From Candidatus Bathyarchaeota archaeon A05DMB-5 (GTDB lineage: Archaea > Thermoproteota > Bathyarchaeia > Bathyarchaeales > Bathycorpusculaceae), in assembly GCA_019685655.1 (NCBI GenBank), contig JABFQP010000003.1:186001-250000 (forward strand): a stretch of 64,000 nucleotides of DNA, read 5' to 3'. The notes under the pieces are model-generated. The model searched no databases. It had not been told where the DNA came from and saw nothing but the letters and a program-made list of their open reading frames with translations. Shown one piece after another: positions 34,599 through 46,404 of this stretch. The stretch's first letter is position 1, and each line of letters starts with the position of its first letter. Position numbers and translations under genes: made by a program.

Positions 34599-35351
34599 TT
34601 AACTTAATCTCTTGGTTAAAGTTCTTTCATGTAATTTTATTGCAGCAAACATGAATATGGACGCAAAAATCAAAATCATTATGTAATCCAGCATTATTGG
34701 ATAGTATCCCTTATCCATGATAAATTGTCGGGCTAAGTCTGTGAAATACGTCAAAGGAGAAAAGGAAGCTATAATTCTTCCCCACTCTGGTAGTTGCTCG
34801 ATTGGTATGAAGACACCACTTATGAATACTAAGGGAAATTTAACTAGAGATGACAACATCATGGATGTAGCTGGAATATCTGTTGGTGGATAAGCTGAGA
34901 GAAGAACACTTAAAGCTGAGAAACACAAGTTTGCAGTAACTAATCCTAAAAGCAAAGCTACAAAGTTCAATAGTCCCACGTTGAAAGTCAAGAGGAGAAT
35001 AAGCGGAAATATAGATATGACGAGCCCAAAAATGAATGACGCTAGCATATCTCCAACTATTATCGTCCAAAAGGCAACAGGACAGCATAAGAGCCTCTCG
35101 AGGGTTTTTGACCGGGTTTCCCAAGGCACAATAGAAGGCCCAACAGAAGTTGCTGTAAAAAACGTGGTCATACCGATTATTCCAGGCAAAACTTCTCTTA
35201 AAGGTATGTTTCGCCCGATAACGTAAGCCAAAGCCAAAAACAGTGGGAATACAAGCCCGAAAATAATGACTGGCCCTTTTGAATAGTAAATTTTGATGTT
35301 CTTTTTCGCTATGACGAAAGAACGCTTAAATTGTTCTGTGAATTGACTTAT
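34599..35351 (-). CDS. ABC-2 exporter permease with an ATA start
   Basis: A protein of 250 residues with six predicted helices, the normal size for an ABC-2 permease. The first helix (GPVIIFGLVFPLFLALAYVIG) lies upstream of the first ATG/GTG/TTG in frame, so that start would cut the protein. GGAGGT followed by nine bases leads to ATA at 35351, overlapping the ATPase stop as ATAA where ATGA is usual. Either ATA initiates or the start codon is damaged. It partners the ATPase just upstream. Confidence 0.75.
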   Translation of the reverse strand: MSQFTEQFKRSFVIAKKNIKIYYSKGPVIIFGLVFPLFLALAYVIGRNIPLREVLPGIIGMTTFFTATSVGPSIVPWETRSKTLERLLCCPVAFWTIIVGDMLASFIFGLVISIFPLILLLTFNVGLLNFVALLLGLVTANLCFSALSVLLSAYPPTDIPATSMMLSSLVKFPLVFISGVFIPIEQLPEWGRIIASFSPLTYFTDLARQFIMDKGYYPIMLDYIMILIFASIFMFAAIKLHERTLTKRLS

Positions 35352-36286
35352 TTTAAAGCAACCTCCTTTTCTTTAATGAGTTTTATGAAAACGTCCTCCA
35401 GCGAGGGCATCATAGTATTTAAGCTCAAAATTCGTATACCTTTTTGTTTGGCGAAATCCGCCAAAAATTCAATCACAGCGGATGGGTTGGCAGTAGAGAT
35501 TCGTAATTTGTTTCCTGCAAAAAAAGCTTTTTTTACGTTTGGATTTTCTGAAAATATTTGGAGGTCTACTGGTTTATCTAAAATGACCTCAATGTATTGG
35601 AGTTCCATACTTTGAATTCTTAAGTTCTCAGGCGTGTCTATAGCCGCTATTCTTCCATGGTTGATTATCGCTATTCTATGGCAAAGCTGGTTTGCTTCTT
35701 CCATGTTGTGAGTTGAAAGGAAAACAGTCTTCCCTTCCTTGTTAAACTGTGTAATTTTCTCTCTCAAAACTCTTGCACTTTCAACATCAAGCCCAGAAGT
35801 AGGCTCGTCTAGAAAAAGCACCTCTGGGTCGTTTACTAAAGCCATACATAACAAAAGCCTTTGCTTCATTCCTTTCGAGAAGCCTTTAACAAGCTTGTTC
35901 TTAACTTCATATAATCCGAATTCTTTCAAAAGTTGAATGGTGTTCTCTTGAATTTTTGATTTTGGAACGCCATAAAGCTTTCCTATTAATGTCAAGTTTT
36001 CCCACGCTGAGAGATCTATGTAGGCGTTTGAGACTTCTGGGACGATTCCAATACGTTGTTTGGCTTCGATTGGGTTTTTCAAAATGTCATGATTGGCTAC
36101 AGATGCTTTTCCCGTATCAGGTTTTATTAGTCCTGTCAAAATTCGGATAGTTGTGGTTTTGCCCGCTCCATTGGGTCCAAGAAATCCGAAAATTTCGCCC
36201 TTTTTAACTTCAAAATTTATATGGTCAATTGCGGTTACATCCTCGTAGTGTTTTGTTAGATTCTTAACTTCTATTGCAAAATTCAT
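35348..36286 (-). CDS. NatA/DrrA-type ABC transporter ATPase
   Basis: A protein of 312 residues. It has Walker A GPNGAGKT, signature FSKGMKQRLLLCMAL (a Lys replaces one Gly of the usual SGG), Walker B VLFLDEPTSGLD and the switch histidine in LSTHNMEEA. The C-terminal extension typical of exporters follows. It forms an exporter with the next gene. It belongs to the PadR-DUF5320-cupin run, and the cupin gene ends 11 bases upstream. Confidence 0.87.
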   Translation of the reverse strand: MNFAIEVKNLTKHYEDVTAIDHINFEVKKGEIFGFLGPNGAGKTTTIRILTGLIKPDTGKASVANHDILKNPIEAKQRIGIVPEVSNAYIDLSAWENLTLIGKLYGVPKSKIQENTIQLLKEFGLYEVKNKLVKGFSKGMKQRLLLCMALVNDPEVLFLDEPTSGLDVESARVLREKITQFNKEGKTVFLSTHNMEEANQLCHRIAIINHGRIAAIDTPENLRIQSMELQYIEVILDKPVDLQIFSENPNVKKAFFAGNKLRISTANPSAVIEFLADFAKQKGIRILSLNTMMPSLEDVFIKLIKEKEVALK

Positions 36287-36297
36287 TGTTTCAACTT

Positions 36298-36654
36298 CTA
36301 ATGGGGGTCTTGGATGCCTAACAAAACTAGTCGTTCCTTGCTTTTTATTCCTCGTGGCATATTTGCTGGAACGAAAAGCATCTCACCCGAAGACAAATCA
36401 GCTTCTTCATTGCCTACGGTGAACGTTCCGCTGCATTCGAGGATTTGGAAGCAAACAGCGTAAGGTTCAGGGCGTGATGGGATTTCTTGTCCAACATTAA
36501 GGCAAATTAACACGAGATTATAATTTTCTGTTTTCATCAAGTCTTTCTTTACACTTTTGCGCTTTTCCATAGTATTTAGTACGCCTTTTTCTGGCGAAAA
36601 TTCCACAAATTTTTTCAAGTTTATTATTTTCATTTCTTTTTCATTTTCTTTCAT
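36298..36654 (-). CDS. Cupin-domain protein
   Basis: A protein of 118 residues with a single cupin barrel (about 45-115). It keeps the turn P-x-P-Y-A-V-C-F and the late GEMLFVPANMPRG motif. The usual metal-binding histidines are mostly absent (no HxH is seen), so it may bind a small molecule rather than catalyse. It lies between the DUF5320 gene and the ABC exporter on the same strand. Function unknown. Confidence 0.7.
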   Translation of the reverse strand: MKENEKEMKIINLKKFVEFSPEKGVLNTMEKRKSVKKDLMKTENYNLVLICLNVGQEIPSRPEPYAVCFQILECSGTFTVGNEEADLSSGEMLFVPANMPRGIKSKERLVLLGIQDPH

Positions 36655-37423: not shown

Positions 37424-37750
37424 ATGAGCGGTGAAGTTGTCAAAGTCAAAAGTTGGGAAGAATTCAAACGTTTAGTTATGGAAAAAAAGCCTAACTCCAT
37501 TGTTTACAATATAGAACAGAACGGTTTGTCTCCGGCAAGAGAGCTTACAAACTTGAGACTAATAATACCATGCAAAGAATCGTATTACGTTTTCATTGAT
37601 TTTTGCAAAGGAGACAGACTGAAAGAAACGGGCATATCTTTGCGCCGAGATAAGACGGGAAACCGCTACATTGACGAAAAAGACGTGATGCAATTCTTGA
37701 AAAATCAGTTTGGAGAAAAATTGGCAATTTGTTCTTACTGGACCATCTGA
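37424..37750 (+). CDS. Conserved hypothetical protein
   Basis: A protein of 108 residues, soluble, with mixed helices and strands and no recognised domain (begins MSGEVVKVKSWEEFKRLV, ends CSYWTI). A TATA-like TTTAATAA at 37387-37394 sits about 30 bases upstream, so the mRNA may have almost no leader. Its end overlaps the end of the arsenite exporter gene by 16 bases. It is divergent from the PadR operon and shares the palindrome region. Confidence 0.55.
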   Translation: MSGEVVKVKSWEEFKRLVMEKKPNSIVYNIEQNGLSPARELTNLRLIIPCKESYYVFIDFCKGDRLKETGISLRRDKTGNRYIDEKDVMQFLKNQFGEKLAICSYWTI

Positions 37751-38790
37751 CGTTTCTTTCGTGGAAAATATTTTCGGGTTCGCAAGCCAAGCTTGACAAG
37801 CGAAAGCATCAAGGGCACTTCCATTAACGGTCCTATAACTGTAGCCAATGCCGCTCCGGAACCAATACCATAAAGAGTAGTAGCAACGGCAATCGCCACT
37901 TCGAAGTGACTGCTTGAACCTATAAGAGTAGTGTCGATGGCGGTTTCGTAAGCCCAACCAGCAAAATAGCCTAGAAGATATGTCCACGTAATCATCGTAG
38001 CATAATGCAATAGGTTTGGAGCTGCAAGATAAGCAACCAAGAGAGGATTATTCAGAATTGTTTGCCCTTCAAAGGAGAATAAAACTATTAAAGTTGTTAA
38101 TAGAGCAACAATGGAGATTTTTCCGATTATTGGCGTGTAAACGTTGGTGAACCACTCTTCACCTTTTTTATCTAATATCAGCTTTCGGGAAATTGCTCCT
38201 GAGACTATTGGTAAAGCTATAAAAAACAGCACACTCATAGCAATCAGATCCCACGGCACGGGAATGCTGCTTACACCTAAATACAGAGCCGCCAATGGAG
38301 CGTAAAGAAAGAGCATTAACAATGCATTGATTGCGGTATTTATCAATCCTTGTGCTAAATCACCTTTCGCGAGAAACATCCACCACATTACCATAGCAGT
38401 GCAAGGAGACAACCCTAAGAGGATGACTCCTGCAATGTATTGAGAATTTCCAGCCAAAATTGTGTTCGCGTAAAGTGTCATTAATGGTGGAGCTATGATC
38501 CAGTTAGCAATTATTGTAACGAGTAATGGTTTCGGTTTTTTGGCAGCCTTTTTGATATCGCTGAATCGTATTCCCACAACGGTTGGATACATCATGAAGA
38601 ACAAGAGAATGCCTATCGGAATTGACAACTGCCCGAACTTAAGAGACTCCATAAATTCTCCGAATTGTGGCAGAAATCTTCCAACAAGCAGTCCAGCCAC
38701 TATGCATATGGCTATCCAAAGCGTTAGGTATTTCTCGAAAATGCCAAGTTCGACTTTTCTGGTTGACGTGGGCTCTTCAGCAGAACTCAA
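37735..38790 (-). CDS. acr3: Arsenite efflux permease Acr3
   Basis: A protein of 351 residues with about ten helices of the bile acid/Na+ symporter fold. The conserved cysteine needed for arsenite transport is in GLSPCTAMVMWW near residue 127. The GSSSHFEVAIAVA stretch of the Acr3 group is also present. It exports As(III) or Sb(III) using the membrane potential. It follows the universal stress protein gene by 20 bases. ArsR genes and ArsC nearby support the arsenic role. Confidence 0.9.
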   Translation of the reverse strand: MSSAEEPTSTRKVELGIFEKYLTLWIAICIVAGLLVGRFLPQFGEFMESLKFGQLSIPIGILLFFMMYPTVVGIRFSDIKKAAKKPKPLLVTIIANWIIAPPLMTLYANTILAGNSQYIAGVILLGLSPCTAMVMWWMFLAKGDLAQGLINTAINALLMLFLYAPLAALYLGVSSIPVPWDLIAMSVLFFIALPIVSGAISRKLILDKKGEEWFTNVYTPIIGKISIVALLTTLIVLFSFEGQTILNNPLLVAYLAAPNLLHYATMITWTYLLGYFAGWAYETAIDTTLIGSSSHFEVAIAVATTLYGIGSGAALATVIGPLMEVPLMLSLVKLGLRTRKYFPRKKRQMVQ

Positions 38791-38810
38791 TTTTTCTCAC
38801 TTCGACAAAA

Positions 38811-39200
38811 TTACTTTACAACGAGTACACTAACAGGTGAGTCATAGCATATTTTGTTGCACACGCTTCCTATCAAATAGGCATGTATTGCGCCTATTCC
38901 TCTGCTTCCAACAACGATTAAGTCAAACTTTTCGTCTTCAGCCATGTCCGTGATGACTTTAGGAGTGTTAGGGTTCAAAACGGAGACAAGATTAAACTTA
39001 ACATCATTGTTTTCTAGAATGGCTTTAGCCTTATCTAAGATTTTTTGGCTTACTTCCTGACCAGTAGGAGCGTGATAAACATTCACTACAGTTACCTGCG
39101 CAGAAAACTTCTGTGCAATTTGAATTGCTTGTTTCAGAGCTTTTTCCGCATACTCTGAACCGTCAACACCGACCAATATCTTTTTCAAGTGATGTTTCAC
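38811..39200 (-). CDS. Universal stress protein UspA family
   Basis: A protein of 129 residues. It starts KKILVGVDGSEYAEKAL and ends with the ATP-binding motif GSRGIGAIHAYLIGSVCNKI (G-x2-G-x9-G-S). The family binds ATP and modulates stress responses. It lies 20 bases before acr3 on the same strand, so they are likely one transcript. The gap to the ArsR gene (80 bases) has AT-rich sequence that may hold a promoter. Confidence 0.88.
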   Translation of the reverse strand: MKHHLKKILVGVDGSEYAEKALKQAIQIAQKFSAQVTVVNVYHAPTGQEVSQKILDKAKAILENNDVKFNLVSVLNPNTPKVITDMAEDEKFDLIVVGSRGIGAIHAYLIGSVCNKICYDSPVSVLVVK

Positions 39201-39280
39201 CGTGAGCTATAAAAGGAACATATTAAAGTATTTAAATCTATTGTTACAATTCTCCAAGAGATAAATAACCAAGCATGTGC

Positions 39281-39670
39281 TTATCGCATGATGTGGAATC
39301 TGCGCAAGTTTTGAATTAATTTCGGGTCAGCTATCATGTAGTAAACCCATTTCCCTTCCTTTCTACTCCTTACTAATCCCACATTTTCTAATATTCCCAG
39401 GTGATGAGAAGTTGTGGGTTGTGTCAAGCCAAGCGCAATCATAATTTCGCAGACACACATTTCCCTAACTTCCAAAAGCTTCAAAATTCTTATTCTAGTC
39501 GCGTCACTTAATGCCTTGAAAAATTTACTTTGTTTTCCAGCTTCTTCTGCATTTGCAACTTCATCCGCAAGCTCTTTAAGCTCATCAGCGTATTTCAGTG
39601 GGTCATCATGGGGACATATTCCAGTGTTTACAAGCCGCTTAAGTCTTTTATCAATTTTTATCTTAGACAT
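39281..39670 (-). CDS. arsR: ArsR-family metalloregulator (first copy)
   Basis: A protein of 129 residues. The winged helix lies at about 45-120. EMCVCEI near residue 70 gives the two cysteines used by ArsR to bind As(III). It recognises DNA until metalloid binding releases it. Its TATA region at 39699-39710 is itself a palindrome (ATATTTAAATAT), a candidate operator. It sits between the redox operon and the usp-acr3 pair. Confidence 0.88.
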   Translation of the reverse strand: MSKIKIDKRLKRLVNTGICPHDDPLKYADELKELADEVANAEEAGKQSKFFKALSDATRIRILKLLEVREMCVCEIMIALGLTQPTTSHHLGILENVGLVRSRKEGKWVYYMIADPKLIQNLRRFHIMR

Positions 39671-39698
39671 TTTGACCGTGATAATTTAACAAAACAAA

Positions 39699-39710
39699 AT
39701 ATTTAAATAT
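39699..39710. promoter_or_regulatory. Palindrome ATATTTAAATAT at the arsR promoter
   Basis: A 12-bp perfect palindrome overlapping the TATA box of the first arsR gene. Its core is the same as the 16-bp palindrome at the second arsR promoter (44015-44030), so ArsR may read both; a bare AT-rich TATA element cannot be excluded. Confidence 0.4.
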
Positions 39711-39727
39711 GTTTTAAATTCGCGTTT

Positions 39728-40312
39728 TTACTTCAATTTAATAGGGCTCATCATCTTTTCAATTTGAATTCTAATCGCAACATTTTCTTCCAAGCTCAAG
39801 GGGGAGCAGTCATGTAACGATTTCTCGCCATTCAAGAGTTTTGCCGCAAAAGCGAAGCATCCTTGCTCTCCGCATTCTTTGCAGTTGGTCTTCGGCAGTT
39901 TTTCGTAAATCTTTGTTGGATCAAGTTCCTTCTTTGCCTTTATCAACTTGGGTTCAGGTTTTCCATGAATTTTGAGGTAGACGAAAGCATGGTTTATGAG
40001 GTTTTTTGCTTCTTCTATCAGTTGTTCCGCTTCGCTTCTATCTTTGACGTAGGTCATTCCGATTCTTCCAGTCGAAAACATTGTTATCAAATGCTGCTTG
40101 TATCTATAGCTCAAAGCGCCTAGTTTCTCAGAATATTTCGCGTTTGGAATCGCAAGATAAAGAATAGGAAGCACATCCTCAAGAGGCTTATCAGCGTGAG
40201 CCAAAAACTTAATCTTTTCAGGGTCTGCAGTGCAAGGCGTTATCTCCTTTATCTCAATCTTTTTAACTAAAACCTCAGGAAACAAAAGTTCCATGAAATC
40301 ATCAATCTTCAT
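39728..40312 (-). CDS. Protein with a C-terminal 4Fe-4S domain
   Basis: A protein of 194 residues. The first 130 are an unrecognised alpha/beta domain. The last 55 hold YEKLPKTNCKECGEQGC and a distant C in LHDCSPL, the four-cysteine Fe-S domain of CdhE, RnfB and similar proteins. It may pass single electrons. ATG at 40312 has GAGAGG upstream and overlaps the end of the preceding small redoxin gene. It is the last gene of the eight-gene operon. Confidence 0.72.
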   Translation of the reverse strand: MKIDDFMELLFPEVLVKKIEIKEITPCTADPEKIKFLAHADKPLEDVLPILYLAIPNAKYSEKLGALSYRYKQHLITMFSTGRIGMTYVKDRSEAEQLIEEAKNLINHAFVYLKIHGKPEPKLIKAKKELDPTKIYEKLPKTNCKECGEQGCFAFAAKLLNGEKSLHDCSPLSLEENVAIRIQIEKMMSPIKLK

Positions 40313-40577
40313 TTCTGTTCCTCTCAAGAATAATTTCTTCAAGTTCTTTCTCGTCAAAATCCACGGGAAGCTTAACTGCACCATCAACTACTACGCATAA
40401 GCCTTGCACTCCGTACTTAGAAGCCTCAGGTGACTTAAGCGACTTCATTTGAACTTCAACGAAATCTTTGAATCTTGAGGTTACATTACCGATTTTATCC
40501 ATAAAAGGGGCAAAATCACAAGCACAAGAGCCGAAGGGCACAAAGACCTCAATCTTCACCTTACTTTTTTTAGTCAT
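40302..40577 (-). CDS. Small redoxin-like protein with a CxC motif
   Basis: A protein of 91 residues. A strand VKIEVFVPFGSCACDFAPF places a CxC motif where small thioredoxins have CxxC. The later GVQGLCVVVDGAVKLP matches the thioredoxin cis-turn region, with a Cys in place of the usual residue. It overlaps the CcdA gene by four bases, so it probably exchanges electrons with that membrane protein. No experimental family name is recognised. Confidence 0.6.
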   Translation of the reverse strand: MTKKSKVKIEVFVPFGSCACDFAPFMDKIGNVTSRFKDFVEVQMKSLKSPEASKYGVQGLCVVVDGAVKLPVDFDEKELEEIILERNRNED

Positions 40578-41278
40578 ATCAAACCTCTCAGTGTGAATCC
40601 AACCATTACGATGCCAATTATGAGAAAAACAATTCCAAAGCCTTTTGTTAACAAATCACCTTTTTCAGATATTCTTTGGCTTATAGCCTTCCTAGCTGTT
40701 GCGAGCAAAGTACTCAGCAAGATTACTGGTAACGCATGACCTAACCCAAACATAAAGAGTAGAAAACCGCCATGAAAAGGAGTAGGCGCTGTTAGTATGG
40801 TCAGCAGGATGGCGGGTAATACTATGGACAGTGAGCATGGCCCTAATGCTATAGAGATGACTAGTCCGAAAAGAAAGGAGCTAATTATATAATTATACTT
40901 TGAAAAGCCTGTTAACGCATTCAGTTTGAGGGCGTTTATCCGCTCGTTTAAAGAATTGCTAATATTGATTGCAATGTTAGTTTTTTTGAGATACCCTAAA
41001 TTGTTAATTCCGAAAATTATGAGAATAGCACCAGCAATTCCAAGGAACATTGGATAATTTACCATACTTAACGGAATAAGAGAGGTTATAGCATAGCCAA
41101 GGAAAAAGAAGACAAGACACATGGCCAGAGTAAAACTCACTCCAATGACTACCCCTTTCAAAATATTTTTACCGACGCCTACCGCAAAAGTAAGATAAAC
41201 TGAGATAAGAGCAATGGAACAAGGTGAAAGGAAAGTTGCGAGTCCAAGAAGGAACAAGCCAAAAGCTTCTTCAAACAT
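40574..41278 (-). CDS. ccdA: CcdA/DsbD-type transmembrane electron carrier
   Basis: A protein of 234 residues with six helices. The two active cysteines lie in FLSPCSIALIS near residue 20 and LGPCSLSIVLP near 145, the CcdA pattern. CcdA takes electrons from cytosolic thioredoxin and gives them to redox proteins outside the membrane. It is flanked by a membrane-anchored redoxin and a cytosolic small redoxin, which fit its two sides. No cytochrome c biogenesis genes are near. Confidence 0.88.
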   Translation of the reverse strand: MFEEAFGLFLLGLATFLSPCSIALISVYLTFAVGVGKNILKGVVIGVSFTLAMCLVFFFLGYAITSLIPLSMVNYPMFLGIAGAILIIFGINNLGYLKKTNIAINISNSLNERINALKLNALTGFSKYNYIISSFLFGLVISIALGPCSLSIVLPAILLTILTAPTPFHGGFLLFMFGLGHALPVILLSTLLATARKAISQRISEKGDLLTKGFGIVFLIIGIVMVGFTLRGLI

Positions 41279-41284
41279 GTTCTA

Positions 41285-41992
41285 TCAAACCTCTAGAAGT
41301 TGATTTATTTTAGATGCCACAATATCTGGCGCTATCTGCTCTGTGTATACTTGAGCTACATGGAATGATTTGTCCACTAAAATAACACTTCCATCACGAA
41401 TCGAGTAAGCAGTATAAGTGTTCACTATGTCCAATATCTGATCGTCATAATCATTACCCAAAATCCATGTAACGCCATAACTACTGCGGATACTCGCAAG
41501 CTGACTATTTGGGCATGTTGCAACGGCAACAGTCACTATAACGAACGGGTGACCTACGCAATAAGTGTTACAGAGACTCTTTAGCTGCCTGAGTTGATGT
41601 TTATTTATATCATAAATTTGTCCACTGCAACCCACCGCCATAAAATGAACGATGATGACTTTTTCGCTGTCTTGATTTAAAGTAAATTGTGTCCCATTTA
41701 TGTCCCTTATAGAGAATGCTGATGCTAAACCCGTTGATGCCGAAGTGCTTGCAGCGCCACCTATTGACGGAGGAAGTTGACTAATATAATATTGCCAATA
41801 ACCATATACTCCAAATATCATAATAGCCAGACAAAATGCTCCAAGAATCTTCCATTTTAACCACTTTCGTGGTTTTTTAACAGTTTCTCTTTCTTTCCTT
41901 ATCTGATATGCTTCTTGCGACCTTTGCTGTTTTACTTGCCTTTTTCGCTGCTTTTCCTTCCAGCTTTCCCTTTTCTTTCGTTTTGTCGGCAT
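41285..41992 (-). CDS. Membrane-anchored thioredoxin-fold protein (TlpA/Sco-like)
   Basis: A protein of 235 residues. A highly basic 40-residue cytoplasmic N-terminus is followed by one helix (about 45-65). An outer thioredoxin-like domain has FMAVGCSGQI where CxxC is usual, plus CNTYC and a later ATC. The C-terminus ends with the DKSFHV strand of redoxins. The missing second cysteine of CxxC is odd; CNTYC may replace it. It lies six bases before ccdA. ATG at 41992 has GGATG upstream; 42001 is an alternative. Confidence 0.68.
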   Translation of the reverse strand: MPTKRKKRESWKEKQRKRQVKQQRSQEAYQIRKERETVKKPRKWLKWKILGAFCLAIMIFGVYGYWQYYISQLPPSIGGAASTSASTGLASAFSIRDINGTQFTLNQDSEKVIIVHFMAVGCSGQIYDINKHQLRQLKSLCNTYCVGHPFVIVTVAVATCPNSQLASIRSSYGVTWILGNDYDDQILDIVNTYTAYSIRDGSVILVDKSFHVAQVYTEQIAPDIVASKINQLLEV

Positions 41993-42015
41993 ACTTCCCA
42001 TCCTTAATTTTAAAG

Positions 42016-42747
42016 CTAATTTGGATTATGACTTGTGTAGAGTTTGTATACTCTTTTCTCTTTCACAGTTTTCATTGCTTTTTTCGACAAGAATTCCAAA
42101 GACTGAACAATTTCTTCAAGAAGCTTAAGTGGAACTCCTATAAACATGTGCTCGGCCGGTGTATCTGTAGCTTCTCGACAACCATAACAGCCAGGGCTTA
42201 TGTTAATTTCATCAGTTAAATATGGCACAACAGTCACATCAACACAACAGCATTGGAAAATAGAAGAGCTAAAGTTGAGGCGTCCCCCTTCTTTGAAGTT
42301 TCGGGCGAGGCAAAGCCACATAATTTGTTCAGGAAGCCCCTCAACCACGATGACGTCAGGAGTTAAGGGAAAATTTTCCAAAGGTCCAGCAACCACCGCC
42401 TTCGTTGCTCCAAGCTTTATTTTTGGTGTCATACTCATTGTTTTTGCTGCTGCTTGTTTACCTTGGAAAAGTCCTAGAGTGCAAAGCATTTCACCGCTAG
42501 AAATTTTTTCCGGCAATGGTGCAAATCCTAACGCTGCTTTTGCAGCTGGACAAGCTAAATCTTCAGAAGTCAACATTAGAGTTTGCCCTTTTCTTGCAAG
42601 CATGAGAAGCTGACAATATCTAGATTTCTGCTGTGGAGATTGTATGTTAGGATGCGGCTCTTCTGTTTTAACTATTTTAACAGCTATCACCGGTGAATCT
42701 AAACCCAAAATCTGTCCAATTTTTCTGCTGAGAATCTTGTTTTCCAC
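42016..42747 (-). CDS. DUF169 family protein
   Basis: A protein of 243 residues. It has the DUF169 layout: SPVIAVKI near the start, a Cys in DLACPAAKAALG, ENFPLTPDVIVVEG in the middle, and a cysteine-rich FQCCCVD with SPGCYGCRE in the last third. Members are found in many anaerobes, often beside metal or redox genes, with no proven function. Nine or more cysteines suggest metal or cluster binding. It is the fourth gene of the operon. Confidence 0.75.
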   Translation of the reverse strand: MENKILSRKIGQILGLDSPVIAVKIVKTEEPHPNIQSPQQKSRYCQLLMLARKGQTLMLTSEDLACPAAKAALGFAPLPEKISSGEMLCTLGLFQGKQAAAKTMSMTPKIKLGATKAVVAGPLENFPLTPDVIVVEGLPEQIMWLCLARNFKEGGRLNFSSSIFQCCCVDVTVVPYLTDEINISPGCYGCREATDTPAEHMFIGVPLKLLEEIVQSLEFLSKKAMKTVKEKRVYKLYTSHNPN

Positions 42748-42774
42748 AGCTCTAATTCCCCAATCTCATTACTG

Positions 42775-43179
42775 TTACAGTCTTGCCTCGTTTATGACTA
42801 TTTTAGCTATTTTCTTGACATCTGCTTGATATATGTCAAGTATAGGCACCTTTTGCAGATACTTTGATATGTCTATCTCATAGTCTATTCTTTTTCCAGC
42901 TTTCTCCATAACTTTTGAAGCACACTTGTTGCCACATCCGTTTATGACGATGTTCTTTTTCGCTTTCTCCGCAATTTCCAAGTGTGGTTTTGAATTTGCA
43001 GCAACCGCCGTTGTGCAACACATTCGAGCTTTGTCCAAGTTAGTGAGCAAAACTCCAACTGCATGCCCTATTTGTCCCACGTTTGCCGCTCCATCACAAA
43101 CCCAAACTACATTTTCATGTTCTGCAACCTTATAACAAAGCGGAAGAATTTTTGGCTGAATAATTGTTTCTTCAGACAT
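42775..43179 (-). CDS. DGC-domain putative zinc-binding protein (first)
   Basis: A protein of 134 residues. It shows WVCDGAANVGQIGHAVG, then CCTTAVAA and INGCGNKCASK, the DGC-type arrangement of conserved cysteines in predicted zinc-binding proteins. It lies 34 bases after a second, distant DGC paralogue and 27 bases before DUF169. Function is not established. Proximity to CcdA and ArsR suggests handling of thiol-bound metal or metalloid. Confidence 0.7.
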   Translation of the reverse strand: MSEETIIQPKILPLCYKVAEHENVVWVCDGAANVGQIGHAVGVLLTNLDKARMCCTTAVAANSKPHLEIAEKAKKNIVINGCGNKCASKVMEKAGKRIDYEIDISKYLQKVPILDIYQADVKKIAKIVINEARL

Positions 43180-43213
43180 ATCGATTATTTCACCTCTTTT
43201 TTAAGTTAACAAA

Positions 43214-43651
43214 TCATTTTTCTAGGATTGATTTTATGATTAGTTCCTTAGCCTTGCGTATGTCTTCTTGAGACACGTATTTTTCAACACCTAAGCCCTT
43301 GCCAATGTCAGTATGCAGAGCCACTTTTTTCATACCGATATCTCTGACAAGCACTATGCTCTTGTCAATTTTGAAACCAGCAGCCTCTATCGTCTTTCGT
43401 GCACATTCAAAAGGACAACCATCCACCGTTATGATTTTCTTTGCAGCTTTAGCCTTTCCAATAACTGGTTTCACACCCAACGGCACAGAAGGCAAACAAC
43501 CAATAGCCACCTTTGCCAAGCCAAGCTCCTTAACAGCTTCCAAGCACGCCAAAGCGCTGGTTATTCCAGTGTTTGATAAACCGCCAAAACAAGAGAACAG
43601 TATAGCCTCATGCGTTGGCATTCCTTCTTGCCATTCTCCCTCTTTGGACAT
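43214..43651 (-). CDS. DGC-domain putative zinc-binding protein (second)
   Basis: A protein of 145 residues. It has ILFSCFGGLSNTGITSALA, GCLPSVPLG and VDGCPFECARK, again DGC-type, and is more complete than the neighbour. ATG at 43651 is taken; an earlier in-frame start at 43735 would reach into the ArsR gene. AGGAGG lies 13 bases upstream. It is directly after the second ArsR gene, 19 bases apart, as the first enzyme-like gene of the operon. Confidence 0.7.
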   Translation of the reverse strand: MSKEGEWQEGMPTHEAILFSCFGGLSNTGITSALACLEAVKELGLAKVAIGCLPSVPLGVKPVIGKAKAAKKIITVDGCPFECARKTIEAAGFKIDKSIVLVRDIGMKKVALHTDIGKGLGVEKYVSQEDIRKAKELIIKSILEK

Positions 43652-43670
43652 CTCCCATTTTCGCCTCCTA

Positions 43671-44000
43671 CTAAACAATTTGTTCAATAACACGTTTCGA
43701 AATCGCATCCACCAAATCAACATCAACGGCGTCAATTATTCGAAAGACCTCAGGGTCAGTAACTGAATAAAACCTTCTGTTCCCATCTTTTCTATGCTTT
43801 ACAAGTCCGCAATTTTTCAGAATGGCCAAATGCCTAGAAACAAGAGGCTGCGCGATTTTCACGTGTGGAATAATCTCGCATACGCATTTCTCGCCGCTAC
43901 GCAAGCACTCCAGAATCTCAATCCTGATTGGGTCAGCGAGTGCATTGAAGATTTTAGCCTTGAACTTGTTTGTGTTTTTTATTTTTGGATGCATGTTCAA
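43671..44000 (-). CDS. arsR: ArsR-family metalloregulator (second copy)
   Basis: A protein of 109 residues. The winged helix contains EKCVCEI near residue 38, again a CxC metalloid site on the recognition-helix side, and LVSRHLAILKNCGLV. It heads the (-) operon and is divergent from the (+) operon beginning at 44064. The palindrome CAATATTTAAATATTG lies between, so it can control both sides. It differs clearly in sequence from the first ArsR. Confidence 0.88.
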   Translation of the reverse strand: MNMHPKIKNTNKFKAKIFNALADPIRIEILECLRSGEKCVCEIIPHVKIAQPLVSRHLAILKNCGLVKHRKDGNRRFYSVTDPEVFRIIDAVDVDLVDAISKRVIEQIV

Positions 44001-44014
44001 AGCAAAGTTAATAG

Positions 44015-44030
44015 CAATATTTAAATATTG
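44015..44030. promoter_or_regulatory. 16-bp palindrome between the divergent ars operons
   Basis: CAATATTTAAATATTG is perfectly symmetric. It lies 15 bases from the ArsR start and 34 bases from the redoxin start. It overlaps the TATA elements of both directions, the expected place for an ArsR operator. Confidence 0.7.
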
Positions 44031-44063
44031 TTATATTTCTCAATAATCAAGCAAGGTGAGAAC

Positions 44064-44336
44064 ATGAAGGAAGTAAAAGTAGAAGTCATTGGGCCTGAAC
44101 CGCCGTGCATGCGGTGTCAAGCGGCAAAGAAGGCTGTGGAGAAAGCTGCTGAGAGACTGAAGCAGTCGGAGATTAGGGTGGAGATTCAAAAAGCTAACGT
44201 GATGTCAAAAGAAATAGTGGGCAAATATGGCGTTCTGGTTTCTCCTGCCATAGCCATAAACAACATTGTCAAAATTATGGGAAGGGTTCCGAAAGAAGAC
44301 GAAATTGAAAGGTTGATAAGAGAAGCTGCAAAGTAG
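44064..44336 (+). CDS. Small thioredoxin-like protein
   Basis: A protein of 90 residues, the redox-active disulfide type of methanogens (MTH895-like). CMRC near residue 14 is the active site, and LVSPAIAINN holds the cis-proline. It can reduce disulfides or deliver electrons to CcdA or ArsC. ATG at 44064 has GGTGAG upstream. First gene of the (+) strand ars operon, 14 bases before the permease. Confidence 0.85.
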   Translation: MKEVKVEVIGPEPPCMRCQAAKKAVEKAAERLKQSEIRVEIQKANVMSKEIVGKYGVLVSPAIAINNIVKIMGRVPKEDEIERLIREAAK

Positions 44337-44349
44337 AGCCTGAAAGATT

Positions 44350-45387
44350 ATGGATGAGAAAACAGTCAGAAGTATTCGAACAGCAATACTTTTGCTTTTT
44401 GTATTCACAGTAATCGGCTTACTAATTTACAGTCGCGTAATGGCTTATTCGCTTGCGCCAACAATGAAGCCAGCTGATTTTCATGGACTCGCCGTATGGG
44501 AAATCCCAATAGCCTATCTCATAGACTACTTTAGCCACGGATGGATATGCTTACTTTTTGCGTTTGTTGCTGCAGGGTTGGTTTACGAGTTTGTGCCGAA
44601 AGAGGCGATTACAAAGTATATGGGCAGCGGAAAGGTTGCTGGATATGGACTTGCTCTTGGAATGGCGCCTTTCTTGACTGTTTGTTCATGCACAATGGTT
44701 CCGCTGTTTGCGGGCGTGCTCTATGCTGGAGCAGGAATCGGTCCAGCCATAACTTTTCTTTTGATGGCACCCGCAGCCAACATACTAAGCATTCTATTAA
44801 CTGGAGAGCTAATATCTTGGGAACTTGCTGGAGTGCGCATAATAGTTTCAGTTGTTGTTGCTTTATCTGCTGGCATAATAATTTCTAAGACTCCGTGGGG
44901 AAAGGCAATAGAGAAGGAGCATCAACTAAACGTTCCCGCTGGTCAGGCATCGGTTGAGGTGGTTAAGCCGCCTTTGGACGAGAGACTTTGGGCATCATTA
45001 AAATTCGCAGCATATCTAGCAAAGCAAATTTTACCCTTCTTTCTCGCGGGCTTAATTGTGGTTGGCTACGTGGAAGCCTACTTGCCCGAAGACATAGTTG
45101 GCACTTATCTGACGGGCGTAACAGGTGTGTTACTTGCGTCAGTTATCGGTGGACCATTGTACACGCCAACATTAGTCGAAATTGTTCTCGGAAGAGGAAT
45201 GTACGCTTTGGGTATGTCAAAAGGTGCATTGCTCAGCTGGCTTATGGGACAGCCGTATGATGTTGCAAATGCTTTGGCTGTTTCGCGAATAGCTAAGTGG
45301 AAAGTTGTTTTAACATACATGTTAATTGCTTGGGCGGGCAGCGTAATATTCGGTTTATTATATGGCTTTTTAAGTGGGTCGCTGTAG
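44350..45387 (+). CDS. ArsP/DUF318-type permease
   Basis: A protein of 345 residues with eight or more helices. Cysteines in LTVCSCTMVPLFAG near residue 120 match the conserved site of the family, known as ArsP when it exports trivalent methyl- or aromatic arsenicals. The second half repeats the fold (GGPLYTPTLVE). Context with ArsR, ArsC and thioredoxin supports organoarsenical export. No ArsM methyltransferase is in the window. Confidence 0.85.
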   Translation: MDEKTVRSIRTAILLLFVFTVIGLLIYSRVMAYSLAPTMKPADFHGLAVWEIPIAYLIDYFSHGWICLLFAFVAAGLVYEFVPKEAITKYMGSGKVAGYGLALGMAPFLTVCSCTMVPLFAGVLYAGAGIGPAITFLLMAPAANILSILLTGELISWELAGVRIIVSVVVALSAGIIISKTPWGKAIEKEHQLNVPAGQASVEVVKPPLDERLWASLKFAAYLAKQILPFFLAGLIVVGYVEAYLPEDIVGTYLTGVTGVLLASVIGGPLYTPTLVEIVLGRGMYALGMSKGALLSWLMGQPYDVANALAVSRIAKWKVVLTYMLIAWAGSVIFGLLYGFLSGSL

Positions 45388-45390
45388 CCT

Positions 45391-45594
45391 ATGAAGGACG
45401 AAAAGACAGAAAAGAAAGCCTCATGCGCGTGCACACAAGCGGCAACAGACGTTCTGAAGTCAGTTTCGCCGATAAAAGAAGGAATGCTTAAAGAAGTAAA
45501 ATGTAAAGAATGTGGAAAAACTTTTTTGGCAAATTTTGAAACTGAATACTGCTTTGACTGCCGAAGAAAATCAGGTAAGGAGGGAAAATCTTAA
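45391..45594 (+). CDS. Small zinc-ribbon protein
   Basis: A protein of 67 residues. A C-terminal ribbon (CKECGKTFLANFETEYCFDC) gives four cysteines, and two more lie near the N-terminus (SCACTQ). The next gene ends with the same kind of ribbon, so the two are related by duplication or fusion. The gene starts four bases after the permease stop and overlaps the next start by one base. Confidence 0.65.
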   Translation: MKDEKTEKKASCACTQAATDVLKSVSPIKEGMLKEVKCKECGKTFLANFETEYCFDCRRKSGKEGKS

Positions 45595-45944
45595 TGGCAA
45601 ACTCTTGTGCACCATGGTATCCAACAGTTTTTCCGGAAAAATGCGATGGTTGCGCCAGCTTTGGTAAGCCTAAATGTGTAGAATTCTGTCCAAATGGCGT
45701 TTTCATTCTTGAAGGCGGAAAAGCTGTTGTTGCATATCCATTTAAATGTGTAAACGGTTGCACAGCGTGTGAGCCGTTATGTCATAAAAAAGCGATAACT
45801 TTTCCAAAAAGAGAGTTTGCCTTTGCCGCGGTTAAGTCTGGAGATAAGGGGCTACTGCGCAAAACTACTTGCGTCAAGTGTGGCAAAACTTTCTGGACTA
45901 ACAGAGACGCGGACACTTGCATGGACTGCGAAAGCAAAAGATAG
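45594..45944 (+). CDS. Ferredoxin-like protein with a zinc-ribbon tail
   Basis: A protein of 116 residues. Two cysteine clusters (CDGCASFGKPKCVEFC and CVNGCTACEPLC) have the spacing of a two-cluster 4Fe-4S ferredoxin with an insertion. The tail CVKCGKTFWTNRDADTCMDC matches the ribbon of the preceding protein. It is likely an electron donor in the ars operon. The start ATG overlaps the stop of the ribbon gene as TAATG. Confidence 0.78.
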   Translation: MANSCAPWYPTVFPEKCDGCASFGKPKCVEFCPNGVFILEGGKAVVAYPFKCVNGCTACEPLCHKKAITFPKREFAFAAVKSGDKGLLRKTTCVKCGKTFWTNRDADTCMDCESKR

Positions 45945-45993
45945 GAACGATAATAAATTATTCAATCAATGATTATTGTAAAAGCAAAGTAGG

Positions 45994-46404
45994 ATGACGT
46001 TAATGAGGAAGGTTCTTTTTGTTTGTGTTGAGAATGCTGGCAGAAGTCAAATGGCTGAAGCTTTTGCGCACTATTACGGTAAAGGCAAGATTGAAGCCAT
46101 GAGCGCTGGCACAATGCCTTCTAAAGATGTTAACCCAGTTGTTGTGCAAGCCATGCGTGAAAAAGGAATTGACATATCACGAAACAAGCCGAAACTGCTT
46201 AGCACAAAAATGGTTCAAGAGGCAGACATGGTAATTGTTATGGGATGTGGTGCAGAAGGCATATGTCCAGCGCCATTGCTCAACAAAGTGGTTGATTGGG
46301 AGCTTGAGGACCCGAAAGGGAAGCCTATAGAGAAGGTTCGCGAAATTAGAGACGAGATTGAAAGAAGAGTCAAAAAACTCGTCGCGGAGTTTTCTGGGGC
46401 TTAA
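45994..46404 (+). CDS. arsC: Arsenate reductase (ArsC, LMW phosphatase type)
   Basis: A protein of 136 residues. The phosphate/arsenate loop CVENAGRS (C11 to R17, CX5R) is intact. VMGCGAEGICP supplies two more cysteines for the thiol relay, as in thioredoxin-coupled ArsC. It reduces arsenate to arsenite, which Acr3 can export. The 49-base gap upstream has AT-rich sequence that may be a separate promoter. A small thioredoxin three genes upstream is the natural electron donor. Confidence 0.88.
   Translation: MTLMRKVLFVCVENAGRSQMAEAFAHYYGKGKIEAMSAGTMPSKDVNPVVVQAMREKGIDISRNKPKLLSTKMVQEADMVIVMGCGAEGICPAPLLNKVVDWELEDPKGKPIEKVREIRDEIERRVKKLVAEFSGA

Follow-up and report, generated by a model that had tools for sequence, protein, structure and literature searches.

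A modular arsenic island of an uncultured archaeon combines detoxification genes with a candidate transmembrane thiol relay and with DGC and DUF169 proteins

The window analysed here, a 64,000-nucleotide stretch of JABFQP010000003.1, is part of a 263-kb contig from an uncultured archaeon related to Bathyarchaeia, with a genome of 1.51 Mb that is 98.6% complete. Between positions 37735 and 46404 it carries an arsenic (ars) island in which resistance genes stand among genes for thiol-redox proteins, two DGC-domain proteins and a DUF169 protein. On the plus strand, the order is Trx3, an MTH895/ArsE-like thioredoxin (44064..44336), an ArsP_1-family permease (44350..45387), a small zinc-ribbon protein, ZnR (45391..45594), a dicluster ferredoxin, Fdx, with a C-terminal zinc ribbon (45594..45944), and an ArsC of the low-molecular-weight-phosphatase type (45994..46404). 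The minus strand reads leftward through ArsR2 (43671..44000), DGC2 (43214..43651), DGC1 (42775..43179), DUF169 (42016..42747), a TlpA-like, predicted outer redoxin (41285..42001), a CcdA/DsbD_TM protein distantly related to ArsG (40574..41278), the small thioredoxin-like redoxA, presumed cytosolic (40302..40577), and an Fe-S protein, FeS, with a C-terminal PF04060 4Fe-4S domain (39728..40315). These are followed by a second ArsR-type repressor, ArsR1 (39281..39670), a universal stress protein, USP (38811..39200), and the arsenite efflux permease ACR3 (37735..38790). Every gene named in the original prediction was found in its place, and Pfam or NCBIfam models, where they exist, recognize ACR3, ArsP_1, DsbD_TM/CcdA, DUF169, both DGC proteins, PF04060, Thioredoxin_3, LMWPc/ArsC and both ArsRs.

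A 24-bp palindrome, ATAGCAATATTTAAATATTGTTAT (44011..44034), lies between ArsR2 and Trx3 and divides the two divergent gene sets. Its arms match at 11 of 12 base pairs, and the sequence is identical in the same-genus genome G001 and at locus L183 (genome G005) and near-identical at L064 and L195. It overlaps a TATA-like stretch, as a repressor site would, and likely serves as the ArsR operator. The original prediction had placed two divergent operons under this one palindrome. The palindrome proved real and conserved, but there are two ArsR genes, and ArsR1-USP-ACR3 is preceded by its own gap with a TATA-like TTTAAATATTT, the gaps carrying an AT-rich motif of their own; neither a single operon spanning the entire left side nor one operator for all genes is therefore established. 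Two gene starts were revised from the longest open reading frame: DGC2 most likely begins at 43651, as set from its orthologues, and Trx3 most likely at 44064. The ratio of non-synonymous to synonymous substitution (dN/dS) lies between 0.04 and 0.12 for the 11 genes shared with G001, indicating strong purifying selection on conserved genes rather than chance reading frames. In the same comparison, synonymous divergence (dS) is about 2.2 for ACR3 and 0.4–0.7 for all neighbouring genes, which suggests that acr3 was replaced in one lineage.

The arsenic genes are recognized to different depths. ACR3 exceeds the TIGR00832 equivalog cut-off (328.1 bits vs 282.8). ArsC (PF01451, 89 bits) falls below the model of the thioredoxin-coupled type (TIGR02691, 91.9 bits vs 174.3) and has the CX5R P-loop, Cys11-X5-Arg17, together with two redox cysteines, Cys85 and Cys91; Cys11 and Cys91 are 100% conserved among 15 neighbours. 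ArsR1 (PF01022, 64.9 bits; NF033788, 101 bits) and ArsR2 (64.8 and 99 bits, respectively) both carry CVCE, the CVC signature of type I arsenic sensors, whose cysteines are kept in 97–99% of 72 neighbouring ArsRs. The permease belongs to PF03773 (142 bits), has eight predicted transmembrane helices and a CSC motif near-invariant in 40 neighbours, and matched no curated ArsP model. ZnR, with sub-threshold matches to PF19769 and TIGR02098, is conserved in the ars islands of relatives, and the ferredoxin, for which Fer4 models stay below cut-off, has eight cluster cysteines conserved at 95–100% in 19 neighbours. USP matches PF00582 (92 bits).

The candidate relay centres on CcdA (PF02683, 47.9 bits vs 27.1), in which Cys20 and Cys148 fall within predicted transmembrane helices 7–25 and 136–154, as in an electron conduit; a sequence search of the PDB with this protein returned only 5vkv, itself a CcdA. 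All 45 CcdA/ArsG-like proteins encoded near DGC genes, two of which (L027 and L163) come from the same genome, keep both intramembrane cysteines, one in the first helix and one in a later helix. Such pairs are what a transmembrane thiol route needs and a pure permease would not, which makes a relay plausible. Its presumed partners, TlpA and redoxA, match no Pfam family and were recognized by context and by transmembrane prediction, with one N-terminal helix in TlpA (residues 47–65) and none in redoxA. TlpA has weak ResA/GPx-like matches in the PDB. Its anchor follows a K/R-rich tail, an arrangement that predicts an outer domain, and its CxGQ active site, Cys144, Cys148 and Cys163 are invariant in nine aligned rows, eight of them distinct. 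In redoxA, a GSCxC motif and a third cysteine, Cys61, are invariant in six aligned neighbours and at L184 and L195; Cys61 appears to sit in the region of the thioredoxin cis-Pro. The three-thiol sets of these redoxins would suit As(III) binding, and the non-canonical redoxins of the archaeal island are new here. Trx3 (PF13192, 53 bits) has a conventional CxxC, CMRC. FeS (PF04060, 52.6 bits) retains its four cluster cysteines in at least 92% of 13 neighbours, and its cluster region resembles that of the corrinoid Fe-S protein.

DGC2 and DGC1 match PF08859 with 61 and 76 bits. DGC2 orthologues are 62–93% identical in archaea and Chloroflexota and share four near-invariant cysteines (C21, C52, C79 and C83). 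AlphaFold2 models of DGC2 and DUF169 reached pLDDT values of 93.6 and 93.3; at E ≤ 0.001, Foldseek matched neither to a PDB entry, and PDB sequence and fold searches gave no confident relative of the DGC or DUF169 proteins. Searching plasmids with DGC2 and DUF169 turned up nothing of use, and a search of the literature brought up no functional study of DUF169, or of DGC from ars operons. The DUF169 protein (PF02596, 201 bits) bears the motifs YCQLLM, ACPAA and CYGCR and, in a tree of 27 sequences, falls within a clade of eight (support 99/95), one of them from Dehalococcoidia. Every member of the clade occurs in ars or ars-redox loci, and 15 of the 19 other sequences are without such a label. 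This ars-linked clade reaching Chloroflexota is new here. DUF169 also occurs near DGC at L113 and L103 and beside DGC1 at L071 and L082; these loci have an SBF-family transporter, which was not ACR3 in the two cases tested.

Linkage of the redox genes to arsenic genes, which the original prediction proposed to look for in other organisms, extends well beyond this genome. A genome scan with DGC2 yielded 80 loci, 77 with a recognisable DGC; having been found through DGC2, they represent DGC2-like proteins. An alignment that included one bacterial-like DGC sequence served solely to widen the search pattern, and mixing every DGC type in one alignment gave too much diversity for the scan. ArsP, ACR3 or ArsC lies within 6 kb of DGC in 54 of the 77 loci; the individual counts are 48 for ArsR, 43 for ArsP_1, 42 for CcdA, 41 for the ArsE-like Trx3, 28 for true ACR3 and 14 for ArsC. 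In 26 of the 77, spread over many phyla, ArsP, Trx3 and CcdA are all found within 4 kb of DGC and on its strand. Densities per 100 kb near and far from DGC in the same loci were 7.2 vs 1.5 for ArsP, 6.6 vs 0.9 for Trx3 and 6.3 vs 0 for CcdA. The DGC domain as such is nevertheless no marker of arsenic, since in an even sample of the archaeon's own phylum only 8 of 47 DGC loci had ars neighbours. ArsG exceeded its cut-off in only 4 of 251 Chloroflexota genomes, with ArsP_1 within about 4 kb in all four and DGC in one, so that ArsP and ArsG form the tighter pair and DGC looks like an accessory. DUF169, too, is not arsenic-specific as a whole family. The branch of it present in the window is, in our sample, confined to ars or ars-redox loci. 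DGC and DUF169 look like accessories.

ACR3-profile matches beside DGC at L067, L068, L071, L082 and L088 were rejected as other SBF-family transporters, and the counts above use the stricter limit. An SBF-family transporter other than ACR3 recurs beside DGC at these five loci and at L103, L104, L107, L112, L113 and L126, and was below the ACR3 cut-off in all five tested.

Relatives retain the frame of the island and vary its contents. In G001, ACR3, ArsP, ArsC, DGC2 and FeS are kept and DGC1-DUF169-TlpA-CcdA-redoxA is missing from the island. Between ArsR2 and FeS, L183 has two other thioredoxin-like proteins, a ferredoxin and DUF169, and L064 and L065 have one or two thioredoxin-like reading frames and DGC2. 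These differing contents indicate that the ArsR2-FeS slot is exchangeable while the frame is kept, and this exchangeability is new here. A cassette within it is recurrent. DUF169-TlpA-CcdA-redoxA runs divergently from ArsR-ACR3 at L195; at L162, ACR3-ArsR is divergent from ZnR-CTGK-Fdx-DGC(×3)-GcvH-DUF169-TlpA-CcdA-redoxA; and L184, a 5.7-kb contig on which Trx3 is the only visible ars gene, has DUF169 and a cupin followed by TlpA-CcdA-redoxA. The order TlpA-CcdA-redoxA is kept, with DUF169 immediately before it in the window, L162 and L195 and the cupin intervening in L184. The DUF169-TlpA-CcdA-redoxA cassette is also new here.

A second island type was encountered at 14 loci (L027, L029, L030, L062, L070, L126, L139, L162, L163, L169, L174, L175, L177 and L180), where a GcvH-like protein is encoded beside one to five DGC genes. 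It keeps the lipoyl-lysine motif E[ST]xK (uncertain in L062), and these islands often include a ferredoxin, an uncharacterised CTG(K/E)CPG protein, TlpA-CcdA-redoxA and ACR3/ArsR. Their composition points to an arsenic-linked redox chain that carries lipoate.

The genome suggests a candidate substrate for the permease. An ArsM gene (358 bits vs 263) lies outside the island with a thioredoxin reductase gene directly downstream (the pair at L204, 6244–8053 of G000:C4), and the ArsM product has the three cysteines typical of ArsM. ArsM was above cut-off in 17 of the 20 archaeal genomes of the phylum searched, and in Chloroflexi it occurs in or beside islands L104 and L118, adjoining ArsR-ArsP-DGC. 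An in-frame TAG suspected in the ArsM of four genomes proved, in the window genome, to be the ordinary stop at the gene end. Campylobacter ArsP exports methylarsenite (PMC6205960). With ArsM in the genome, methylarsenite would be a realistic internal product and a candidate substrate for ArsP-type export, which stays a proposal because the ArsP_1 protein has no curated functional assignment.

On balance, we regard the island, with moderate confidence, as an ArsR-controlled arsenical-detoxification locus with a built-in distant arsEFG analogue and a proposed thiol relay. Gene content, conservation, co-occurrence, cysteine patterns and the conserved palindrome are observed; ArsR binding, the substrate, the direction of electron flow and the parts played by DGC, DUF169 and FeS are what we infer. 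ArsC would reduce arsenate and ACR3 would export arsenite, and the ArsP-family permease would probably export trivalent methylarsenicals made by ArsM. Thioredoxin reductase or ferredoxin could reduce redoxA, Trx3 or both in the cytosol, from which electrons would move on, by way of the two cysteines that CcdA holds within the membrane, to the anchored outer redoxin. At the cell surface, the latter might then act on arsenicals and on oxidised or arsenic-bound thiols, reducing or binding them. DGC, DUF169 and FeS would be Cys-rich accessories in the cytosol that probably pass on arsenic or electrons; they may bind arsenic or connect ferredoxin to the relay. Dealkylation, another function raised in the original prediction, is not indicated, as the island showed no ArsI-type gene, ArsI not having been searched genome-wide.

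Several observations weigh against the relay as drawn. The G001 island lacks the relay genes, so the relay is dispensable for the remaining genes. The outer redoxin has CxGQ in place of the CxxC of TlpA/ResA and may not be a classical disulphide reductase. CcdA scores 33.4 bits against an ArsG cut-off of 200 (NF040495) and Trx3 50.5 against 62 for ArsE (TIGR00412). Exporters of Cu/Zn and of other substrates also belong to the ArsP_1 family, and the permease's best curated matches, both sub-threshold, are the SO_0444 Cu/Zn exporter and SaoE. A bolder version, in which the redoxA-CcdA-outer CxGQ relay acts directly on methylated or thiol-bound As(III) at the surface, DGC and the ars-branch DUF169 are new cytosolic arsenic-handling enzymes or metallochaperones, and the lipoyl GcvH-like protein is the dithiol carrier of the same chain in sister islands, we consider doubtful.

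Three other explanations bear on the same evidence. CcdA might itself be an arsenical efflux permease for which the redoxins, as cytosolic or membrane-bound reductases, prepare the substrate, no electrons crossing the membrane; this accords with the NCBIfam name of the ArsG family, aromatic arsenical efflux permease, and with the listing of ArsG among ars efflux transporters in PMC9144182. The intramembrane cysteines of CcdA/DsbD conduits, kept in every CcdA-like protein inspected, the predicted outer domain of TlpA, and the efflux already supplied by ACR3 and ArsP make it improbable. Similarly low odds attach to general repair of envelope thiols, placed under ArsR because arsenite attacks thiols and involving no action on arsenicals. 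Elsewhere CcdA and TlpA are known to work as a pair in disulphide reduction, and the ars core of G001 exists without the cassette; yet the association of CcdA with ArsP, an ArsE-like thioredoxin and DGC across distant phyla is more specific than repair predicts, and the outer protein can be of the ArsF type in bacterial islands. Least probable, and very unlikely in our view, is an island devoted mainly to another soft metal (antimony, cadmium, lead, mercury or copper/zinc), to which the permease and DGC would belong and of which the arsenic genes would be mere neighbours. The sub-threshold matches of the permease lean that way, and CVC-type relatives of ArsR such as CadC also sense cadmium and lead; the same clusters, however, contain true ACR3 and ArsC, joined by ArsM in Chloroflexi relatives, and the island yielded no recognisable P-type metal ATPase.

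To the left, the island probably extends past ACR3, because three further units have homologues in other ars islands: a small reading frame for an uncharacterised 108-aa protein (37424..37750, plus strand), a cupin (36298..36654, minus strand; PF07883, 31.8 bits) and an ABC-2 exporter pair (34599..36286, minus strand), comprising a permease (34599–35237; ABC2_membrane) and an ATPase (35348–36286; ABC_tran). Homologues of the 108-aa protein occur in ars islands L022, L183, L184, L185, L195, L169 and L028. For the cupin, homologues occur in L184, within the DUF169-TlpA cassette, and at L104 and L107, upstream of ArsR-ArsP; in these two Dehalococcoidia loci the ABC pair and cupin stand directly upstream of ArsR-ArsP-Trx3-DGC. 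The segment 34599–36895 also holds a His/Cys-rich 61-aa protein, and the group adjoins a PadR gene.

Returning to the detoxification island with its proposed thiol relay, gene neighbourhoods and invariant, mutable cysteines link DGC and one DUF169 clade, families of unknown function, to arsenic. The published view of ArsG as an efflux permease is also touched, since cysteine pairs conserved within the membrane are consistent with an electron conduit. Should the relay act on arsenicals outside the cytosol, it would add a so far overlooked step to anaerobic arsenic cycling by sediment archaea and Chloroflexota.

Among known systems, arsEFG of Shewanella, from the 2019 work of Chen, Zhang and Rosen (cited in PMC9144182), reportedly detoxifies roxarsone and nitarsone. 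The window resembles it in combining a thioredoxin-like protein, a second redoxin and a DsbD_TM membrane protein in an ars setting, and the neighbours of a DGC 69% identical to DGC2, at the Chloroflexi locus L109, exceed the cut-offs for ArsE (107 vs 62 bits), ArsF (81 vs 60) and ArsG (272 vs 200). In the window, the outer redoxin is TlpA-like without CxxC rather than ArsF, and DGC, DUF169, FeS, ACR3 and ArsP are added. As TlpA, redoxA and Trx3 gave no match to the ArsF model NF040494 (cut-off 60), and ArsE and ArsG scores also fell short, the layout resembles arsEFG and the set is not filed as a member. The CcdA/TlpA pair of cytochrome c maturation likewise joins a DsbD_TM protein with two intramembrane cysteines to a membrane-anchored TlpA-like partner; the window differs in its ars context, the extra cytosolic redoxA, and an outer CxGQ redoxin with three other invariant cysteines. 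The selenocysteine-assisted organometal (SAO) system of Haft and Gwadz (2023), as outlined in PMC13188914, shares an ArsP_1-family exporter (SaoE) and a thioredoxin-like protein in an organometal setting, but identity with it was rejected: SaoE scored 75.7 vs 325 bits and SaoT 17 vs 65, and no window protein matched SaoC or the MerB-like SaoL. The account of ars operons by Castillo and Saier (2010; PMC2963123) describes eight ars operons with the same three redox families (CcdA, thioredoxin and redox-active disulphide protein 2) and already raises the possibility of electron transfer through the membrane by CcdA, with support of cytosolic ArsC favoured; its section 3.9 leaves DGC, DUF169, the Fe-S protein and an exported redoxin unmentioned. 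The central idea of the original prediction, with electron flow via CcdA in an ars operon, was therefore not new. We see in the island an archaeal form of a bacterial arrangement known in part, one that connects DGC and a single branch of DUF169 with arsenic.

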